A DNA stretch of 64,000 nucleotides from Gordonia lacunae (GTDB lineage: Bacteria; Actinomycetota; Actinomycetes; Mycobacteriales; Mycobacteriaceae), in the NCBI RefSeq assembly GCF_002149015.1, contig NZ_NGFO01000001.1, forward strand, positions 310,001 to 374,000, in the 5' to 3' direction. The notes under the pieces were generated by a model. The model saw only the letters and a program-made list of their open reading frames with translations. It made no database searches and was not told the DNA's origin. The stretch's first letter is position 1. Each line of letters begins with the position of its first letter. Of this stretch, positions 53,126-61,465 are shown piece after piece. Made by a program: the position numbers and the translations under genes.

Positions 53126-54292
53126 CTAGGCGGTGGACTCCGCCGACTCGCTGCCGGAACTGTCGTCACCGGAGCGGTCGCTCGATTCGGAGTCGGCATC
53201 GCCCGATCCGGGATCGCCGCCTTCCGCCGGGTCGACCGATCCCGGGCTGCCGGGCTGCTCGGGCCGGTTGTCGTCGACCTGCTCACCTGCGTGCGGATTG
53301 TCGCCGGGGTTCGCGCTGTCCTCGCGCTCGGTCGGCGTATCCGTACCGCCGTCGACGTCGGTGTCCGGCCGGGTCTCTCGATCCACGCGCCGTGGTTCTC
53401 CGGAGTCCCGGGGTGGCTCGGCATCGGTGCCCGCGTCGGAGCGGGTCTCGATGTCGCGGGTCTCCGTGTTCGGCTCGATGGGCCGGCCGCGGGGTGGTTC
53501 GGCGGCGTCCGGTTCGCCGCGGGTGTCCGGGTCGGTGCGAGGTGTCTCGACGGGCCGTTCGGTTCTCGGGGGGACGCTGCCCCGACCCAGCGACTTCAGG
53601 AGCGCGGAGACGAGCGGGATGGTCTCGAGCCAGGCCCGAATGCTCCACGGCCCCCGCGGATCCGACACCAGGACGATGACCGGTCCATCGGTGTCGGTCG
53701 GGGGCGGAGGCGTCAGGCTGGTGCCACCATCGGGTACGCCGGGTCCGCCGGAACCCTGGGCGTCGCCGGTGTAGACGACGAAGGGGCTGTTCGCATCCAG
53801 GCCGGCGATGACGGTCATGACCGCCAGGTTCTGTTGCACCGCTCGTTCTTTGGTCTCGTCGTCGAACTCGGTGGACAGTACGGCGCGGGTTCGGGGGCCG
53901 CTGGCGATGATGGGACCGATCGACTGCGGATGGTCGATGACCAGGGTCCGAGGAGCGCCGGCGACGGGCAGGTCTCGTGTGAAGAGGGTGTCGGCGGCGG
54001 CCGGGGAAGCCGCGAGAATTCCCCGCGTGGGGTGACCGACGGCAACCTGCGGGGGCTGATTCGGGAGCAGCGATGTGGTGTGCGCCTGTGCCGCGACCTG
54101 GACGGTGGCGGGTGCGGCGAGGGCGTGGACCAGGGTGGTGGCGTTGATCGACGCGACTGCCGTCGGGATCACCGTGCAGAGCGAGAGTGCGGCGAGGGTC
54201 AGGGAGGTACCGGCGACGCCCGAGGGTCGCCGAAGAGGACCGCCGCCGTCGTTGTCGACGGCGCGGTGCGTGCCGCGCCGATGTGATGCCAC
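53126..54292 (-). CDS. Exported protein with long acidic low-complexity tail
   Basis: 388 residues from GTG 54292, chosen because GAGGGGG lies 8 bp upstream; an ATG at 54343 is an alternative. An N-terminal signal region (GVAGTSLTLAALSLCTVIPTAVAS) precedes a central domain of about 160 residues (TLVIDHPQSIGPIIASGPRTRAVLSTEFDDE, NLAVMTVIAGLDANSPFVVYTGDAQG, PVIVLVSDPRGPWSIRAWLETIPLVSALLKSLG). The last 150 residues are Pro/Asp/Glu/Ser/Arg-rich and disordered. No family was recognised. A surface role is inferred. The opposite strand is also open for 331 codons owing to the biased composition. Confidence 0.65.
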   Translation of the reverse strand: MASHRRGTHRAVDNDGGGPLRRPSGVAGTSLTLAALSLCTVIPTAVASINATTLVHALAAPATVQVAAQAHTTSLLPNQPPQVAVGHPTRGILAASPAAADTLFTRDLPVAGAPRTLVIDHPQSIGPIIASGPRTRAVLSTEFDDETKERAVQQNLAVMTVIAGLDANSPFVVYTGDAQGSGGPGVPDGGTSLTPPPPTDTDGPVIVLVSDPRGPWSIRAWLETIPLVSALLKSLGRGSVPPRTERPVETPRTDPDTRGEPDAAEPPRGRPIEPNTETRDIETRSDAGTDAEPPRDSGEPRRVDRETRPDTDVDGGTDTPTEREDSANPGDNPHAGEQVDDNRPEQPGSPGSVDPAEGGDPGSGDADSESSDRSGDDSSGSESAESTA

Positions 54293-54441
54293 CCCTGGGC
54301 CCCCTCTTTGTCGATCAGATAGTAGACGACGCAGGGGTGGCATGGTGTCGTCTGAATGACGCGAATCGGGACATCTGCTCGGTGCGTCGAGCCGGCACCG
54401 GTCGGTGACGTCATCGTGGTGCGGCAACGGGGCCGACATGG

Positions 54442-55519: not shown

Positions 55520-56101
55520 CTACTCGGAGTCGCGTCGACGGAATTCGACGCCACGCGGCGACAGTTCGTAGCCGACGACGAGGCTGTCGGTCAGTCCGAG
55601 CTTCTTGAGCTTGGTGATGTCCTGCTTCAATCCCGCTCTCTCGCGGCCGAGTTCGGCCGCGAGGTCGGTGGACACCACCCCTGGGCGGCGGGCGATCACG
55701 TCGAGCACGTCACGCGTCCACGGTCCGCGAGTGGACCGCGCGTCCATACGATCGAGGCGGGTCCGGATCTCGTCGACATCGTCGTCGGACAGATCGTCAT
55801 CGGCGCGCAGAGCGATTCGCGGGTCCTCGCCGATACACCGCAGTCCGATCCGGTACGTCGGGTTGTGGACGTTGACGCACAGGGCGGCGCGGACGTCGTC
55901 GGCGGCGTCGTATCCCGCGCGACGTGCTTCGTCGTCCGTGATCCGCTCGGGGTCGACGCGCTGCATGGACGTCACCTCGATCACGTGCGTCAGCGCGATG
56001 AAGCTCGAGCCCGGATGTATGCGCGGGTCCCCCCATCGCCGGAAGGCGAGGTCGACGGTTCCATCGGCGACCCCGCGAGCGACTGCGGCCGTGAGAAGCA
56101 C
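55520..56101 (-). CDS. ASCH-like domain protein with C-terminal winged helix
   Basis: 193 residues from GTG 56101. The first 110 residues show an ASCH/PUA-like layout: VDLAFRRWGDPRIHPGSSFIALTHVIEVTSMQRVDPERITDDEARRAGYDAAD, a pattern where a nucleic-acid-binding beta-barrel follows the R-W-G loop. The last 70 residues look like a winged helix (TRDVLDVIARRPGVVSTDLAAELGRERAGLKQDITKLKKLGL). The combination suggests an RNA- or modified-base-binding regulatory protein. The function is not established. Confidence 0.7.
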   Translation of the reverse strand: MLLTAAVARGVADGTVDLAFRRWGDPRIHPGSSFIALTHVIEVTSMQRVDPERITDDEARRAGYDAADDVRAALCVNVHNPTYRIGLRCIGEDPRIALRADDDLSDDDVDEIRTRLDRMDARSTRGPWTRDVLDVIARRPGVVSTDLAAELGRERAGLKQDITKLKKLGLTDSLVVGYELSPRGVEFRRRDSE

Positions 56102-56321
56102 AGTCGCGACCTTAGCCAGCGGGCCGGCGCGGTGCAGGATCCGTGGTCAGACGCCTGTGTCACCCCTGTGGACGACAGCTGAGAGGTCGCTGAGAGCTGT
56201 TGTAGGGTAACCCGAGGTCAGCGACGGCATTGCCGACGTCTTCGGGGGACCCCCTGCGTCGTGCCGTCGTCGAACGCAACTTCACGACGACATGATCACC
56301 GGCCGGGGGGAGGGATCTTTG

Positions 56322-57200
56322 GTGCCGCCGCGCGTTCTCGCACTGTGGTTTCCCGACGTCCCACCGTGGCCTGCCGTCGATGCGACACCCGCCGCCGATC
56401 TGGCCGCTCACCTGGCCCGACACCGTTCCGTCGGCCCAGCTCACGACGCTCCGCAACCGGCGGCGGTGGCCGTGCTCGAGCGTCCGATTCCGGTGTTCGA
56501 GGAGCCGGCCCGGACGCCGATCCCGGTGGCAGACGTCGTTGTTCCGCGTCCCTCTTCTGAGCTCGACGCGTTCCTCGCCGAGGCCGAGAAGTCGGTGCGG
56601 GCACAGCGTAAGACCGGGTCGGGCAAGCGCAGGGAACGTCGTCCCCACGCCGGTTCGCCCCTGCGAATAGCGGGTGCGGTAGCAGCGATTCTTGTGATCG
56701 TGACCACAGTTCTGGGTGTGGTCCTGGCTCAGGGCGGTGAGCCCGAGTCGGCAACGGCGTCGACGCCGAGCACCGACGCCGCGTCGGACCCGCTCATTCC
56801 GTCCACCTCGGCAGTAGCGAGCGAGCCCGCCTGTACGCAGCGACCGGTGGGGGCGGGGACGACGGTGTCCGACGGCGACGACGCCGGCAATCAGGAATCG
56901 GGTGCCGGAGCGATCCGCGCCTTCAACCATGCCTATTACGTCCTGCGCTCGGCGAAGGCGGCACGCGCGGTCGCAGCCCCGGGCGCGGTGGCCTCCGAGT
57001 ACGTCATGCAGCAGTACATCAACCAGCGACCGCTCGGGACCCGGCACTGCCTGACCGTCTCCGACCGCGGATCCGGCGAGTACTCGGTGGTGCTGACCGA
57101 ACTGCAGCCCGACGCGGCGCCCATCACCTACCGGCAGGTCATCCGCACCACGACCGCCGGCGGCAAGTCCTACATCCAGTCGATTCGATCCGTTGAGTGA
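56322..57200 (+). CDS. Single-pass membrane protein with extracytoplasmic domain, first gene of the secreted-protein cluster
   Basis: 292 residues from GTG 56322, chosen because a GGGGGGAGGG stretch precedes it; ATG 56292 is an alternative. The N-terminal 110 residues are cytoplasmic and Pro/Ala-rich (PPRVLALWFPDVPPWPAVDA), followed by a basic patch, one membrane helix (IAGAVAAILVIVTTVLGVVLAQ), a Ser/Thr-rich linker and a C-terminal domain of about 100 residues (AIRAFNHAYYVLRSAKAAR...QYINQRPLGTRHCLTVS...YSVVLTELQ). That domain resembles an NTF2-like fold by eye, the topology of VirB8/TcpC proteins, but no motif proves it. It lies 43 bp before the glycine-rich protein gene. Confidence 0.65.
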   Translation: MPPRVLALWFPDVPPWPAVDATPAADLAAHLARHRSVGPAHDAPQPAAVAVLERPIPVFEEPARTPIPVADVVVPRPSSELDAFLAEAEKSVRAQRKTGSGKRRERRPHAGSPLRIAGAVAAILVIVTTVLGVVLAQGGEPESATASTPSTDAASDPLIPSTSAVASEPACTQRPVGAGTTVSDGDDAGNQESGAGAIRAFNHAYYVLRSAKAARAVAAPGAVASEYVMQQYINQRPLGTRHCLTVSDRGSGEYSVVLTELQPDAAPITYRQVIRTTTAGGKSYIQSIRSVE

Positions 57201-57243
57201 GTTTTCGTCCGCCACCGCGGGCACACCAGAGAGGTAGTCGGTA

Positions 57244-58449
57244 ATGAGTCATGGTCGGGGTCGGCACCGGAAGCGTCGTGTGCCGAGTGGTCCATTGCTG
57301 TCGGTGACGTCGGCGGTGGTCGCGGTGTCGATCACCGCGGGCGCCGGGGCGGCGTTCGCGGTTCCGGAGCAGGGCGGAACCAGCCCGGGTGACACGGCTC
57401 CCGGTCAGGGCGGCACGAGTCCGGGGGATGTGTCCCCGGACGGTGGCGCCGGTGCGGAGGCGACGGTGGAGCCGATCGTGGTTCCCGGTCCGGGCAGCAT
57501 CCCCGGTCCGCCGGTGGAGGCGCCGTATCAGGCGTACACCGCGCCGGGGTCGCAGTCTTATGACGAGCCCTACACCCCGCTGATCAACAATCGGGTGGCA
57601 CCGCGGGTTGCGCCGCCGGTCCGGCCGATCGCGCCGCCGCCGGAGAAGATCCGTGTGGGCAACTTCGTCACCGACATCCCTGAGGGCATGTCGAAGCGTG
57701 ATGTGAACTCGATCAATGCGTGGTCGGCCTATGGTGAGGCGAAGATCGCGCAGGGTCTGATCTCGGCTGGTGTTCCTGAGGACGAGGCGACTCGTCGTGC
57801 GGCTGCGACGATCATCGGCGTGATGGCTGGTGGTACCGCCGGTGCTGTCGCACTGGGCATTCCGTCGGCGGTCGTGGGGGCGGTCGGGGGAGCGGGAGTG
57901 GGCGCGAGCGCCGGCGCAATAGTGGGCATCTTTACGACCCTTGGGCTGACTTCAGGTGCTGACGCGTTGGCGGGCGCGGGCATCGGTGCTGCGGTTGGCG
58001 GTATCGGCGCAGGCGTAGCGGGTGCGGTTATCGGTGCAGCCATCGGGGGCACGGCAGGCGGACTGCTGGCGTACTCGCTCGGTGCCGGAGATCCCGGTGC
58101 GAACCCTGATGAGCCGTGGCGCCAGAACGGGCCGCGTCACGCGCTGCCAGAATCTGGCCCGAATCAATTCGAATTTCACTTGTCATCGGACCAGGCCCGT
58201 CTTTCGGGGCTGCCTGCTGTCGACTATGTCGTGAATCATCGCGGTGACGTCGACGCGCAGGTTGGCACGTCGACCTTCAAATGGACTGGTGTACAGGCTC
58301 GTTCGCCCTACGCTGTGTTGGGACCACAAGTTGAGAAGTCAGTCCGTGATTGGACGCGGGCGCAATCTGAGAATCTCAAGAACGCGGTCCCAGGGAGTAA
58401 CGTGCTGTGGCCCGGAGAGGATGACGACAGTAAAGCATTCAGGCAGTGA
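57244..58449 (+). CDS. Exported protein with glycine-zipper hydrophobic domain
   Basis: 401 residues. A signal peptide with a basic start (RGRHRKRR) ends near residue 39 (AAFA-VPEQ). Residues 40-135 are Gly/Pro-rich with a repeated GGTSPGD motif. Residues 146-185 are a helical polar segment (MSKRDVNSINAWSAYGEAKIAQ). Residues 186-283 are a long Gly/Ala-rich hydrophobic region with G-x3-G spacing (GVMAGGTAGAVALG, GAVGGAGVGASAGAIVG, GIGAAVGGIGAGVAGAVIGAAIGG). The C-terminal 115 residues are polar. Such glycine-zipper regions occur in pore-forming peptides and membrane-inserting toxins; that role is inferred. GC content declines towards its 3' end. Confidence 0.75.
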   Translation: MSHGRGRHRKRRVPSGPLLSVTSAVVAVSITAGAGAAFAVPEQGGTSPGDTAPGQGGTSPGDVSPDGGAGAEATVEPIVVPGPGSIPGPPVEAPYQAYTAPGSQSYDEPYTPLINNRVAPRVAPPVRPIAPPPEKIRVGNFVTDIPEGMSKRDVNSINAWSAYGEAKIAQGLISAGVPEDEATRRAAATIIGVMAGGTAGAVALGIPSAVVGAVGGAGVGASAGAIVGIFTTLGLTSGADALAGAGIGAAVGGIGAGVAGAVIGAAIGGTAGGLLAYSLGAGDPGANPDEPWRQNGPRHALPESGPNQFEFHLSSDQARLSGLPAVDYVVNHRGDVDAQVGTSTFKWTGVQARSPYAVLGPQVEKSVRDWTRAQSENLKNAVPGSNVLWPGEDDDSKAFRQ

Positions 58450-58505
58450 GCTGAAGTGCGCGAGATGGCCTGCATCGATTCTGTGTAGAACTAAGAGAGT
58501 ATGAA

Positions 58506-58991
58506 ATGAAGAAGCCGGTGGTGGCAATTTGCGTTGCGGTAGTCGCGATGTTCAGTGTCTTGTTCGGTGGAGGGAACGCGTCCGCTACTCCAATGCAGAA
58601 CTTCAGTACAAATGGCACGACGTTCGGGACATTTGGTGACCATTCCTTCTGCCGCGGTGCCATTACATACAAGGTGGACGGGGTGGCGAAGAAGCGCGGA
58701 GTGGTCCGGGTCACCGCGACTTCGCACGGCTTCTCGGGCCAGGGTCCGAGCTGGTTTCGCAACCCCAACTGTCGAGTCCTGTTTCGATCGGCCTTTACGA
58801 GTAGCAGAGGGCTGGATCTTGAAAAGTGGACGATCGGACCATTCGGTTCAAGGCCCGGCCAGAAGAAGGTCTGGGAAGTCGTCACTGGCTCAGGCCTGGC
58901 GACGGTAGGTATCACGACTTACGCAGTTAACAGCGCGGTTCGTGTTCCCCAAGCTCCAGCTGGTCCTGCCTTCTTCATGGCGGTCCCGTGA
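58506..58991 (+). CDS. Secreted two-cysteine protein, paralogue 1
   Basis: 161 residues. Signal peptide 1-27 (VVAICVAVVAMFSVLFGGGNASA). The mature protein starts near TPMQNFSTNG and has the landmarks GTFGDHSFCRGA, KKRGVVRVTATSHGF, a W-x-RNPNCRVL block, LEKWTIGPFG and KVWEVVTGSG. The two Cys residues are positioned to form a disulfide. The family was not recognised. It is the first of three tandem paralogues, with a 56-bp gap after the glycine-zipper gene. Its codons are less GC-biased than in flanking genes. Confidence 0.75.
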   Translation: MKKPVVAICVAVVAMFSVLFGGGNASATPMQNFSTNGTTFGTFGDHSFCRGAITYKVDGVAKKRGVVRVTATSHGFSGQGPSWFRNPNCRVLFRSAFTSSRGLDLEKWTIGPFGSRPGQKKVWEVVTGSGLATVGITTYAVNSAVRVPQAPAGPAFFMAVP

Positions 58992-59041
58992 ATGAGTTCA
59001 AACTGACATGTCGTCGCTATAGAGATACCCGAGGGGTTGGT

Positions 59042-59524
59042 ATGAAAAGGTTGGTAGTAGCACTATCCGCTGTGGGGCTCATGTTCTCGGTGGCGTTTGC
59101 GGGTGCCGGAAGCGCATCTGCGGCTCCTCTGCAGATACTTCAGACGAGCAGTACCACGTTCGGCACTTTCGGCGACCATTCGTTCTGCCGCGGCGCTCTT
59201 TCGGTGAGGTGGCAAAGTGTCCCGAACAAGCGTGGTGTCGTCCGTGTAACCGCGACCTCGCATGGATTTGGTGGCGACGGCGCGACGTGGAAGCGCAATC
59301 CCAAGTGTCGTGTACTTCTACTAACGCAGACGACGAGCATCCGTGGTCTGTATGTCCAGAAGTGGGTGCCCGCGTCGTTCGGGCCGCGACGAGGTATTGC
59401 GAAGAGCTGGGATGTTATGACTGGCTCCGGATTCGCCAATATTGCTGTTATGCCGTACTCGGCGAACGGGCCGGTGCCACTGCGCCAAGGATACGGCGCT
59501 GGCGCCAACATGATCGTTCCCTAA
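59042..59524 (+). CDS. Secreted two-cysteine protein, paralogue 2
   Basis: 160 residues from ATG 59042, chosen for GAGGGG 5 bp upstream; a GTG at 58988 overlaps the previous stop. Signal peptide 1-28 (LVVALSAVGLMFSVAFAGAGSASA). Shared blocks: GTFGDHSFCRGA, KRGVVRVTATSHGF, W-KRNPKCRVL, VQKWVPASFGPRRG and SWDVMTGSGF. It is closest to paralogue 1 in the first half and to paralogue 3 in the second. Its role is unknown. Confidence 0.75.
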   Translation: MKRLVVALSAVGLMFSVAFAGAGSASAAPLQILQTSSTTFGTFGDHSFCRGALSVRWQSVPNKRGVVRVTATSHGFGGDGATWKRNPKCRVLLLTQTTSIRGLYVQKWVPASFGPRRGIAKSWDVMTGSGFANIAVMPYSANGPVPLRQGYGAGANMIVP

Positions 59525-59553
59525 TGGCGTTTGAACTCGACGAAGGACGTACC

Positions 59554-60033
59554 GTGAAACGAGTTCTTGCAATTGTCGGGCTGGCGGTGTCGGCCGTTCT
59601 GTGCGTCTTTGCCACAGGTTCGGCGTCCGCGGCTCCGATTCCCCAGGTTTCGACTACCGGCTACAACTTCGGGATATTCGGCGACCACTCTTACTGCCGG
59701 GGTGCGGTCAACGCGACTGTGGATGCGCCGAAGGGTAAGCGGGGTGTAGTCAGGGTCACGGTGCGATCGCATGGGTTCACCGGGGCTGGGGCGAGTTGGA
59801 AGCGTAATCCGAATTGCCGAGTGCTGTTTGGGAACTACTACACCAGCGTGCGGGGTTACAACCTGGAAAAGTGGGTTACCGCAACGTTCGGCCCGCGCGC
59901 AGGCGAGAAGAAGGTGTGGGAGATCAACACCGGCTCAGGACCAGTCAGCCTTGGGTTCGGTGGGTTCTCGCCCAATAGCCCAGTTCGAGTCCCTTCCGGC
60001 TACGGTTCGACCATCTACATGCTCGTTCCCTGA
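59554..60033 (+). CDS. Secreted two-cysteine protein, paralogue 3
   Basis: 159 residues from GTG 59554, preferred because GAAGGA lies 6 bp upstream; ATG 59524 overlaps the previous stop. Signal peptide 1-26 (VLAIVGLAVSAVLCVFATGSASA). The family blocks are FGIFGDHSYCRGA, GKRGVVRVTVRSHGF, W-KRNPNCRVL, LEKWVTATFGPRAG and KVWEINTGSG. The aromatic residues in the FGDHS block and the two cysteines are invariant in all three copies. It ends 6 bp before the MinD-like gene. Confidence 0.75.
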   Translation: MKRVLAIVGLAVSAVLCVFATGSASAAPIPQVSTTGYNFGIFGDHSYCRGAVNATVDAPKGKRGVVRVTVRSHGFTGAGASWKRNPNCRVLFGNYYTSVRGYNLEKWVTATFGPRAGEKKVWEINTGSGPVSLGFGGFSPNSPVRVPSGYGSTIYMLVP

Positions 60034-60039
60034 CCCCCT

Positions 60040-60747
60040 ATGACCAACCCGACCACACCACGCGACGACGACCCGCAGGCTTGGGCCGAGCGGGCCGCCG
60101 TCGTGTGCGGGACCGCGGGCGGTGTTGGGACGTCGGTCGTTTCGGCGCTGCTCGCCGAGCACCGGGCGTCGTCGACGCTCGGTCTGCTGTCGTGGTGGGT
60201 GGACGCGTCGGGCAACGACTGCGACATCGAACTGCGGCTCCGTGGGTCGGGTAACCCCGAACTGTTGCGCACGGCGTCGGGGACGGGTCTGTGGCTGCCT
60301 CCCGAGGAGGCGACGGTCACCGACGCCGTCGTCGAGACGTGGCGGCAGGGTGCGGTTCCCGTCGTCGATGCCGGTGCGCATCCGCTGACGTTGCTCCCCG
60401 AACTCGCCGAGGACGATCTTCCGAACCTCACGCCGGTGCTCGTCATCGCGGCACGCCCCGACCTGCTCAATCGCGCGCGCGTCGTCTTCACCGAATGGGA
60501 CCGGGCCGGGGTGCTGGAGAAGACGATCGTCGTCATCTCGTCTCAGCTACCGACCACCCACCACGACGGGCTCGCCGACATGCTGGTCAATGTGGTGTCC
60601 GGTGCGGTCGGCGGCGTGATCGGCCTCGACTACGACCCCGTGATCGGCGCCGGCACCGCCCTCGACCAGGGCGCGCGCCGCGGGTGCCTCCCGGCGACGC
60701 ACCAGACCATCGCGACTCTCGCCGCGGCGACCACGAACAGGCGCTGA
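60040..60747 (+). CDS. MinD/CpaE-like protein with a lysine-less P-loop
   Basis: 235 residues from ATG 60040. The N-terminal AAVVCGTAGGVGTSVVSALLAEH occupies the Walker A position of MinD/ParA-type proteins, but both Lys positions are lost (GTAGGVGTS), so ATP hydrolysis is doubtful. Later strands fit the fold (LGLLSWWVDASG, VPVVDAGAHP, PVLVIAARPDLLNRARVVFTEWDRAGV, TIVVISSQLP). Ssd at 33.5 kb has a similarly lysine-poor loop. No Shine-Dalgarno is visible, and only 6 bp separate it from the last secreted paralogue, suggesting translational coupling. Confidence 0.65.
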   Translation: MTNPTTPRDDDPQAWAERAAVVCGTAGGVGTSVVSALLAEHRASSTLGLLSWWVDASGNDCDIELRLRGSGNPELLRTASGTGLWLPPEEATVTDAVVETWRQGAVPVVDAGAHPLTLLPELAEDDLPNLTPVLVIAARPDLLNRARVVFTEWDRAGVLEKTIVVISSQLPTTHHDGLADMLVNVVSGAVGGVIGLDYDPVIGAGTALDQGARRGCLPATHQTIATLAAATTNRR

Positions 60748-60793: not shown

Positions 60794-61465
60794 ATGACCG
60801 GCTCCACTCGCACACCGCTCACCCCCGCCCAGGCCGCCGAGATGGTTGCCGATCCGTGGCGCGTCATCGCCGACCGACTGGCAGCCGCCTACAGCACCGG
60901 GTCGATGGTGCGGGGCGGCGAGTTCGTCGCCGCGATCATCGACGCCGCCGAACAGGCGAATCACCACCCCGACATCGATCTTCGGTATGGGACGGTGCAT
61001 CTCGTCCTCACGACACACAGCGCCCATCAACTCACGGAAGCCGACGTCGCGCTGGCGAACCGGATCACCGGCATTGCCGCCGACCTCGGCCTCGAACCGG
61101 CGTCCGCGCCCGTCACGCAATTCAACCTGGCCATCGACGCTCTCGACATCCCGGCCATCAGGCCCTTCTGGAAAGCGGTCCTCGGCTATGGCGACGCCGC
61201 CGAACGGGAGCCCGTCGACCTCGTCGACCCGGCCGGCCGTTTACCCAGCGTCTGGTTCCAGCAAATGGACGAACCCCGGCCGCAGCGCAGCCGCATGCAC
61301 GTCGACCTCTGGGTTCCGACCGACGAGTTACACGGGCGGCTGCAGTCGGCGATCACCGCCGGCGGTCAATTGCTCACCGACGACTACGCTCCCGCGTTCT
61401 GGGTGCTCGCCGACGCCGAGGGCAATGAGGTGTGCCTGTGTACCTGGCAGGACCAGAACTTCTGA
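60794..61465 (+). CDS. Pterin dehydratase-like/VOC fusion protein
   Basis: 223 residues. Residues 10-100 resemble pterin-4a-carbinolamine dehydratase: VRGGEFVAAIIDAAEQANHHPDIDLRYGTVHLVLTTHSAHQLTEADVALANRI, with the paired HH and the later His. Residues 105-223 form a VOC/glyoxalase unit (FNLAIDALDIPAIRPFWKAVLGYGD, HVDLWVPTDELHGRLQSAITAGGQLL, FWVLADAEGNEVCLCTWQ). The two-domain arrangement recurs in actinobacteria. It may act on a pterin or an unrelated metabolite. Confidence 0.85.
   Translation: MTGSTRTPLTPAQAAEMVADPWRVIADRLAAAYSTGSMVRGGEFVAAIIDAAEQANHHPDIDLRYGTVHLVLTTHSAHQLTEADVALANRITGIAADLGLEPASAPVTQFNLAIDALDIPAIRPFWKAVLGYGDAAEREPVDLVDPAGRLPSVWFQQMDEPRPQRSRMHVDLWVPTDELHGRLQSAITAGGQLLTDDYAPAFWVLADAEGNEVCLCTWQDQNF

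Follow-up and report, generated by a model that had tools for sequence, protein, structure and literature searches.

A six-gene chromosomal island in Gordonia lacunae with kinship to conjugation operons of the Mycobacteriales and a possible role in exporting variable secreted proteins

A cluster of six same-strand genes, here named g1 to g6, lies within a stretch of 64,000 nucleotides of the Gordonia lacunae genome (contig NZ_NGFO01000001.1, positions 310,001 to 374,000; the whole stretch is referred to as the window and positions are those of the window). Comparison with other genomes indicates that the cluster is an island with a recognizable insertion site, that g1 and g2 and, more weakly, g6 are kin to genes of conjugation operons, and that g1, the glycine-zipper (GZ) protein g2 and a cutinase are restricted to the Mycobacteriales among the plasmids sampled. 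The comparison further points to the exchange of a segment that runs from the middle of g2 into three paralogous genes for secreted proteins (PARs, g3 to g5), and to a multiplication of g2 loci beside a single chromosomal g1-g6 pair. The favoured explanation, at a probability of about 0.4, is that an adaptor that fits conjugation to the mycolate envelope (GZ and g1, often with g6) has been taken over by the chromosome, where it exports the PARs or displays them. The features of the locus are as follows.

56322-57200, plus strand: g1, GTG start, single-pass membrane protein with an N-terminal tail taken as cytoplasmic and an outside domain with two invariant cysteines
57244-58449, plus strand: g2 (GZ), exported protein with a proline-rich linker, a glycine-zipper hydrophobic region and a C-terminal domain
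57805-58080, plus strand: hydrophobic, glycine-rich glycine-zipper region of g2 (residues ~188-279)
58099-58446, plus strand: C-terminal domain of g2
58506-58991, plus strand: g3 (PAR 1), Sec-type signal, two conserved cysteines, basic
59042-59524, plus strand: g4 (PAR 2), same family as g3 and g5
59554-60033, plus strand: g5 (PAR 3), GTG start, of the three PARs the one with the best-conserved counterpart among close relatives
60040-60747, plus strand: g6, presumed cytoplasmic, MinD/ParA-like protein that lacks the Walker A lysine
57844-59560, plus strand: exchanged segment, from the middle of g2 (codon ~200) into the PARs, with raised synonymous divergence (dS)
55520-56101, minus strand: left flanking gene, weakly helix-turn-helix-like, outside the module
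60794-61465, plus strand: right flanking gene (g7), pterin-4a dehydratase/glyoxalase-like, outside the module

The genes of the cluster also occur together in other Gordonia genomes, and the two genes that border them adjoin each other directly where no cluster lies between them; the cluster is therefore judged to be beyond chance, and its genes appear to form one unit, a chromosomal island. Both flanking genes were found in 28 Gordonia genomes, with the site occupied in 11, empty in 16 and split over contigs in one (one row counted per genome from 34 right-flank and 28 left-flank rows, weak rows dropped). In genomes that lack the island the flanking genes are divergent neighbours 48-78 bp apart, and at occupied sites they are separated by 3.3-10.7 kb (gaps measured between match edges; in G026 and G041 the left gene is fragmented). 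Across 59 Gordonia genomes, g1 and g2 were found in the same 31 genomes, g6 in 29 of these 31 and a PAR in 27 of these 31, with none of the genes elsewhere at the cut-offs used; these counts are uncorrected for the relatedness of the genomes, which inflates such tests, and they exclude a weak g2 in G037 and take g1 from strong rows. The majority of PAR places (65 out of 73) have a g2 place no more than 5 kb away. The conserved linkage of the cluster, whose absence would have counted against a preliminary description made from the window's sequence, is seen both in gene co-occurrence and at the insertion site. The module also occupies a second site, behind genes for tRNA-Ile and tRNA-Ala (detected in four of the five loci scanned) and a gene that we take to be gyrA-like, and in front of a gene that is presumably peptidyl-prolyl-isomerase-like. 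Among the genes of the module, none was noticed that resembles an integrase or a transposase.

Several further features were observed around the islands. A large low-complexity protein encoded at 53126-54439 (minus strand), which has no Pfam or NCBIfam match and adjoins a gene that we take to be lipase-like from its sequence, is conserved to the left of the insertion site in related genomes. At six loci (L073, L074, L076, L105, L106 and L111) one or two diverged PARs lie past g6 on the opposite strand, with additional PAR pieces in L106, and g7 is tandemly duplicated beside the island in G025 (L100, 13299-14709). A small exported protein of ~131-138 amino acids that is unlike the PARs (cluster c36) is encoded repeatedly close to g2 loci or on a plasmid with g2 (L071, 9412-9828; also L083, L085, L107, L112 and L166).

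Relatives of g2 are present on 25 Gordonia plasmids. On pKB1 and others the gene order is cutinase, g1, g2, in some cases g6, a DUF6668-like gene, genes for small proteins and SCO6880, with a coupling protein and a relaxase further on; these are operons of SCO6880-type conjugative type IV secretion systems (T4SS), of which Rhodococcus pCP135, pDK4 and pRJH3, Hoyosella pAS9A-2 and a plasmid of Nocardia sp. NBC_01503 are further examples. The order is mostly cutinase-GZ-g1-g6 in Rhodococcus and Hoyosella and GZ-g1-g6-cutinase on a Rhodococcus erythropolis plasmid, and Nocardia has a variant. Models built on Gordonia sequences only found g1 on all six Rhodococcus, Nocardia and Hoyosella plasmids examined (E 3e-25 to 1e-30) and GZ on five of the six (E 2e-19 to 5e-34), and on the sixth plasmid GZ (E 5.9e-30) and cutinase lie at the far end of the circular record. 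A region homologous to the N-terminal and glycine-zipper parts of g2 was thereby found beside a g1 homologue. Two other conjugation-like backbones also have a g1-g2 pair, which adjoins a T4SS coupling protein in L155, where g1 is part of a 629-amino-acid protein, and adjoins an AAA_10 and an FtsK-like ATPase in L150.

The preliminary description knew of no described system with this gene set. That statement holds for described families, none of which was convincing for any of the six proteins, but not for the genomic setting, since known conjugation operons of Gordonia, Rhodococcus, Nocardia and Hoyosella contain kin of g1 and g2 and, to a lesser extent, of g6. What these operons share with the island is kin of g1 and g2, in part also of g6, that stand side by side on one strand. 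In contrast to them, the island locus contains neither SCO6880 nor a coupling protein, no cutinase match was found in the window's stretch of its contig (C1), and the island carries PARs, up to five in number, and a g2 C-terminal domain that is fully matched in Gordonia only. In the window's own genome the SCO6880 match and the coupling protein (PF02534, one match) are found only on another contig, C22. A second g1-g2 pair lies within the T4SS operon of C22 (L090), whose SCO6880 protein scores as that of G038 (L160) and is 97% identical to that of pKB1. Overall, SCO6880 genes were found at nine places in 8 of the 59 Gordonia genomes, and most chromosomal modules therefore reside in genomes that lack this T4SS. 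A GZ gene lies no more than 6 kb from seven of the nine places and ~9.5 kb from an eighth if its contig is circular; the ninth place (G033) has no GZ.

A tree of 65 GZ regions clusters the plasmid and the chromosomal copies (6 changes compared with 19 in shuffles; the plasmid and chromosome labels of the loci, here and elsewhere, are partly judged from context). Of the Gordonia chromosomal rows, 36 fall into one supported group together with two long-branch plasmid rows of uncertain placement. The tree is unrooted, and capture of the module from plasmids is likely.

Next, the operons were compared inside and outside the Mycobacteriales. Eighteen plasmids were taken from 374 SCO6880 records by hit and host genus before GZ was looked for: ten from the Mycobacteriales and eight from other hosts (two Arthrobacter, Paenarthrobacter, Pseudarthrobacter, Kocuria, Streptomyces, Aeromicrobium and Micromonospora). 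L147, L151 and nine Gordonia loci that had been picked by GZ stand outside this count. At a presence cut-off of about E 1e-5 or better, g1 was found on 10 of 10 Mycobacteriales plasmids (one of them, from C. glutamicum, weak), GZ on 7 of 10 and cutinase on 9 of 10, and each of the three was found on none of the eight other plasmids (best E 6e-4 for g1 and 0.9 for GZ; Fisher p = 2e-5 for g1, 0.004 for GZ and 4e-4 for cutinase). The refined models were built on the same sequences, so that their E-values inside the Mycobacteriales are not independent, and unrefined models were also used. The most economical interpretation has cutinase, g1 and GZ fitting a shared type of T4SS to the mycolate envelope. 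According to work cited in PMC6794481, a cutinase is reported to promote conjugation of a plasmid from Rhodococcus fascians.

In five close loci (ten pairs) the median dS is 0.4-0.5 for g2 codons 1-200, g6 and g7 and 0.6 for g1, rises to 1.4 in g2 codons 201-392 and 1.1 in the first PAR, and is 0.7 in the last PAR. The ratio of nonsynonymous to synonymous divergence (dN/dS) along g2 is 0.04 (codons 1-200), 0.15 and 0.07 (C-terminal domain), and purifying selection acts alike on g2 codons 1-200, g6 (0.07) and g7 (dN/dS 0.04-0.07 overall); the last PAR has 0.14 and the first PAR 0.49, the latter with dS near saturation. The jump in dS from the middle of g2 into the PARs looks like cassette exchange by recombination between strains and not like runaway change, in agreement with the earlier suggestion that the paralogues are interchangeable. 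The exchanged segment roughly coincides with a drop in GC content, 0.55-0.62 over ~58.2-60.0 kb compared with 0.63-0.74 for the remaining blocks between 54.0 and 62.4 kb; the drop had been described before, with an onset placed slightly too early (~57.9 kb instead of ~58.2 kb).

The multiplication of g2 is seen in a survey of 56 g2 places (short and weak rows left out, neighbouring pieces merged as coordinates), of which 30 are near both g1 and g6, 11 near g1 only, 3 near g6 only and 12 near neither. All 12 lone places are in genomes that hold g6 elsewhere, a figure that is partly expected because 29 of the 31 g2 genomes have g6 anyway. Ten of the 12 were judged to be chromosomal satellites, in eight of which g2 adjoins a whole PAR or a piece of one, and the other two are on a T4SS contig and in a contig-end piece. 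Three loci (L099, L100 and L101) contain g2-PAR-g2-PAR arrays with loose g2 C-terminal pieces, and in G051 g1 and g6 are adjacent to each other with no g2 between them, the g2 and PAR array being ~54 kb away. No genome has two strong g6 copies on one contig; the second strong copies of G028 and G038 are on T4SS contigs, as is the sole g6 of G036. Some genomes combine extra g2 or g2-PAR loci with a single chromosomal g1-g6 pair, that is, one helper with several pairs.

The individual proteins largely match the preliminary description. The six open reading frames have the positions and strand given there, with gaps of 43, 56, 50, 29 and 6 bp from g1 to g6. An upstream ATG at 56292 could also start g1, but the GTG at 56322 is preferred because a WF-D-P motif common to the relatives begins near it. 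A promoter and terminator scan of the locus returned a single promoter-like site, on the minus strand, and no terminator-like site. The g1 protein has one hydrophobic segment (residues 116-134) followed by two cysteines that are invariant in 16 aligned proteins, consistent with a single-pass membrane protein with an outside domain. The g2 protein has a signal-like N terminus, the long glycine-rich hydrophobic stretch at residues ~188-279 that had been described as a glycine zipper in an exported protein, and no cysteine. Its C-terminal domain is one homologous domain throughout 21 aligned Gordonia proteins, and full-length matches to it are confined to Gordonia. The three tandem secreted paralogues do form a single two-cysteine family, with both cysteines invariant in 27 aligned proteins. 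All PARs tested (61 out of 61, drawn from 67 collected proteins as those >140 amino acids and with the signal cut by a simple pattern) are basic, with isoelectric points (pI) of 9.6-11.2, compared with a median of 5.4 for 16 control secreted-like proteins of the same loci, three of which also reach 9.6. PAR variability peaks around residues 94-109, a predicted hairpin. An AlphaFold2 model of g5 is all-beta (predicted local distance difference test, pLDDT, 85.9), and its fold comparison returned general sandwich domains with no family standing out; from this predicted beta-sandwich the PARs may be described as Ig-like secreted proteins. In g6 the sequence GGVGTS occupies the Walker A position and the lysine is absent from 14 out of 14 aligned proteins, as had been noted for this MinD-like protein. 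Its P-loop-like region aligns weakly with FleN (E 0.14-0.27), a likeness to MinD/FleN-type ATPases, from which the family differs in the missing lysine and in the absence of a Pfam match to such a family for its 14 members at E<=0.1.

Searches of Pfam, NCBIfam, PHROGs, PADLOC and PDB sequences with the six proteins or their families returned nothing convincing. Matches of g1 to the SCO2400 family (2 of 16 members, best E 0.0016) and of g6 to DUF7697 (2 of 14 members, E 0.0024) were set aside as weak. A phage tape-measure match of g2 (PHROG, E 1.8e-6) falls on the glycine-rich stretch and was attributed to composition. A PAR match to a PDB 'ribonuclease inhibitor' chain (profile E 0.0032) included no stretch individually below the limit, and a link from PARs to porins through the MspA rim domain (Foldseek rank 3, E 0.015) was rejected at a TM score of 0.30, since unrelated sandwiches score alike. 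A phage origin was likewise rejected: g2 and g5 had no match among phage records, and relatives of g2 were absent from the viral contigs. Four Rhodococcus g2 relatives carry the RefSeq label 'insoluble domain protein', of which no mention was found in the open-licence PubMed Central (PMC) literature, and no description of this gene set was found there either.

The favoured explanation can be put as a sequence of steps. From the cytoplasm, g6 would act with g1 in the inner membrane to assemble or position g2, whose glycine-zipper helices would be embedded in a membrane, with the mycolate outer membrane as the likeliest. The PARs would leave the cytoplasm through Sec and then be passed through g2 or displayed on it at the surface, where their diversity would set what is recognised. 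We infer the membrane location of g2, its physical contact with the PARs, their export or display and the use of their diversity. The suggestion in the preliminary description of an exported set is counted as supported, and the set probably forms an envelope complex. A broader version, possible but held more tentatively, is that GZ and g1, with or without g6, constitute a general apparatus for passage through the mycolate outer membrane, which moves DNA in conjugation and, as a free-standing chromosomal copy, secretes the Sec-exported PARs.

A number of observations weigh against the adaptor explanation. A PAR is absent beside g2 in 16 of 17 plasmid-type loci, which indicates that PAR export was not the original job of the module (two further plasmid-like contigs, G015:C2 and G040:C74, carry a PAR). 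Eight of the 73 PAR places have no g2 nearby (three of them have it 11-21 kb away), and such PAR relatives also occur in another genus; side matches in other genera, one strong and one weak in an odd frame (L182, 9581-10120, minus strand; L183, 10286-11614, minus strand), had no g1, g2 or g6 match in the stretch fetched around them. GZ was undetected in three of the ten Mycobacteriales plasmids (L200, L201 and L202, from Dietzia and two Corynebacterium), and these three operons keep a g1 homologue (weak in L201), one of them lacking cutinase. The refined g6 model matched 6 of 10 plasmids inside the Mycobacteriales and 6 of 8 outside (E 2e-15 to 1e-19, weaker than inside), so that g6 is not a mycolate-specific part; the MinD-like protein is therefore probably an older part of the operon. 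The envelope link is also confounded with T4SS lineage: the identity of the SCO6880 ATPase to the query is 26-37% inside and 29-34% outside, mostly lower outside than the 34-37% of the first Mycobacteriales picks, although GZ is present on one R. erythropolis plasmid at 30% and absent from a Paenarthrobacter plasmid at 33.5%. The structure model of g2 is of low confidence (pLDDT 38.9), and its membrane location and any pore are guesses. Finally, the distances of the g2 C-terminal domain and the PARs correlate over 26 adjacent pairs (0.48, or 0.39 allowing for the N-terminal part) but not within the window's clade of 16 (0.07).

The same pattern of genes can be read in other ways, among which surface exclusion and antagonism are serious competitors of the adaptor explanation. 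The module might act in surface exclusion as a functional counterpart of TraT, with g2 and g1 blocking incoming conjugation and the varied chromosomal g2-PAR pairs excluding several plasmid types. Its location close to the start of transfer operons in several plasmid backbones, the islands in genomes that lack the SCO6880 T4SS and the PAR variability centred on a predicted hairpin are all consistent with such a role. PMC11733297 describes a comparable distribution for TraT of F-like plasmids, a transfer-operon protein with chromosomal copies, some of them without a tra operon, that plasmid families acquired independently; TraT also combines an alpha-helical membrane part with a beta-sandwich. 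The resemblance would be one of analogy and not of kinship, as g2 has no Pfam family at E<=1 and no cysteine for lipidation, no sequence relationship to TraT was found, and the beta-sandwich is here a separate secreted protein where TraT is one chain. Exclusion alone would also leave unexplained the restriction of g1, GZ and cutinase to the Mycobacteriales in the sample and the need for several PARs, and this role is considered about half as likely as the adaptor. Antagonism, in which the PARs would be basic effectors secreted against neighbours and g2, g1 and g6 a device for release or self-protection, draws on the uniformly high PAR pI and on the several diverged PARs per genome that are swapped between strains. 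The searches gave no convincing toxin or enzyme family and the fold comparison no more than general sandwich domains, and antagonism is regarded as marginally less likely than exclusion.

Polymorphic toxin and immunity loci such as contact-dependent inhibition (CDI) and Rhs systems have a conserved front and an exchanged rear. The island resembles them in these respects and in its satellite loci and loose C-terminal pieces, and its C-terminal part of g2 could be a toxin, the PARs the immunity proteins and the loose pieces displaced toxin tips; the alternating arrays in L099, L100 and L101, the sharp change of divergence inside g2 and the overall correlation of g2 and PAR distances fit this picture. 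The rear of g2 is, however, one homologous domain under purifying selection instead of a set of swapped non-homologous toxins, the partner is exported and basic, most plasmid g2 copies have no PAR and the covariation is lost within the window's clade. On these grounds a classical toxin-immunity system was rejected as the first choice and is thought improbable, and the proposal in the preliminary description that the paralogues are immunity-type partners is now less supported. Least probable is a functionless remnant of an integrated plasmid: g2 is in pieces in L091, L101 and L104 and the phylogeny is compatible with descent from plasmid copies, but g1, g2 and g6 have intact frames in many genomes, and g2 codons 1-200 and g6 are under the same purifying selection as the neighbouring g7.

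It has long been asked how proteins and DNA get through the mycolate outer membrane. A gene pair that is present in the conjugation operons of mycolate-bearing hosts and not with the same T4SS outside them, in a small sample, is a concrete candidate for a part in envelope crossing. The island is also a natural experiment, since this pair is here separated from the transfer machine and accompanied by diversifying secreted partners, and chromosomal copies occupy more than one site; it may help to explain how waxy-coated bacteria move cargo across their outer membrane.

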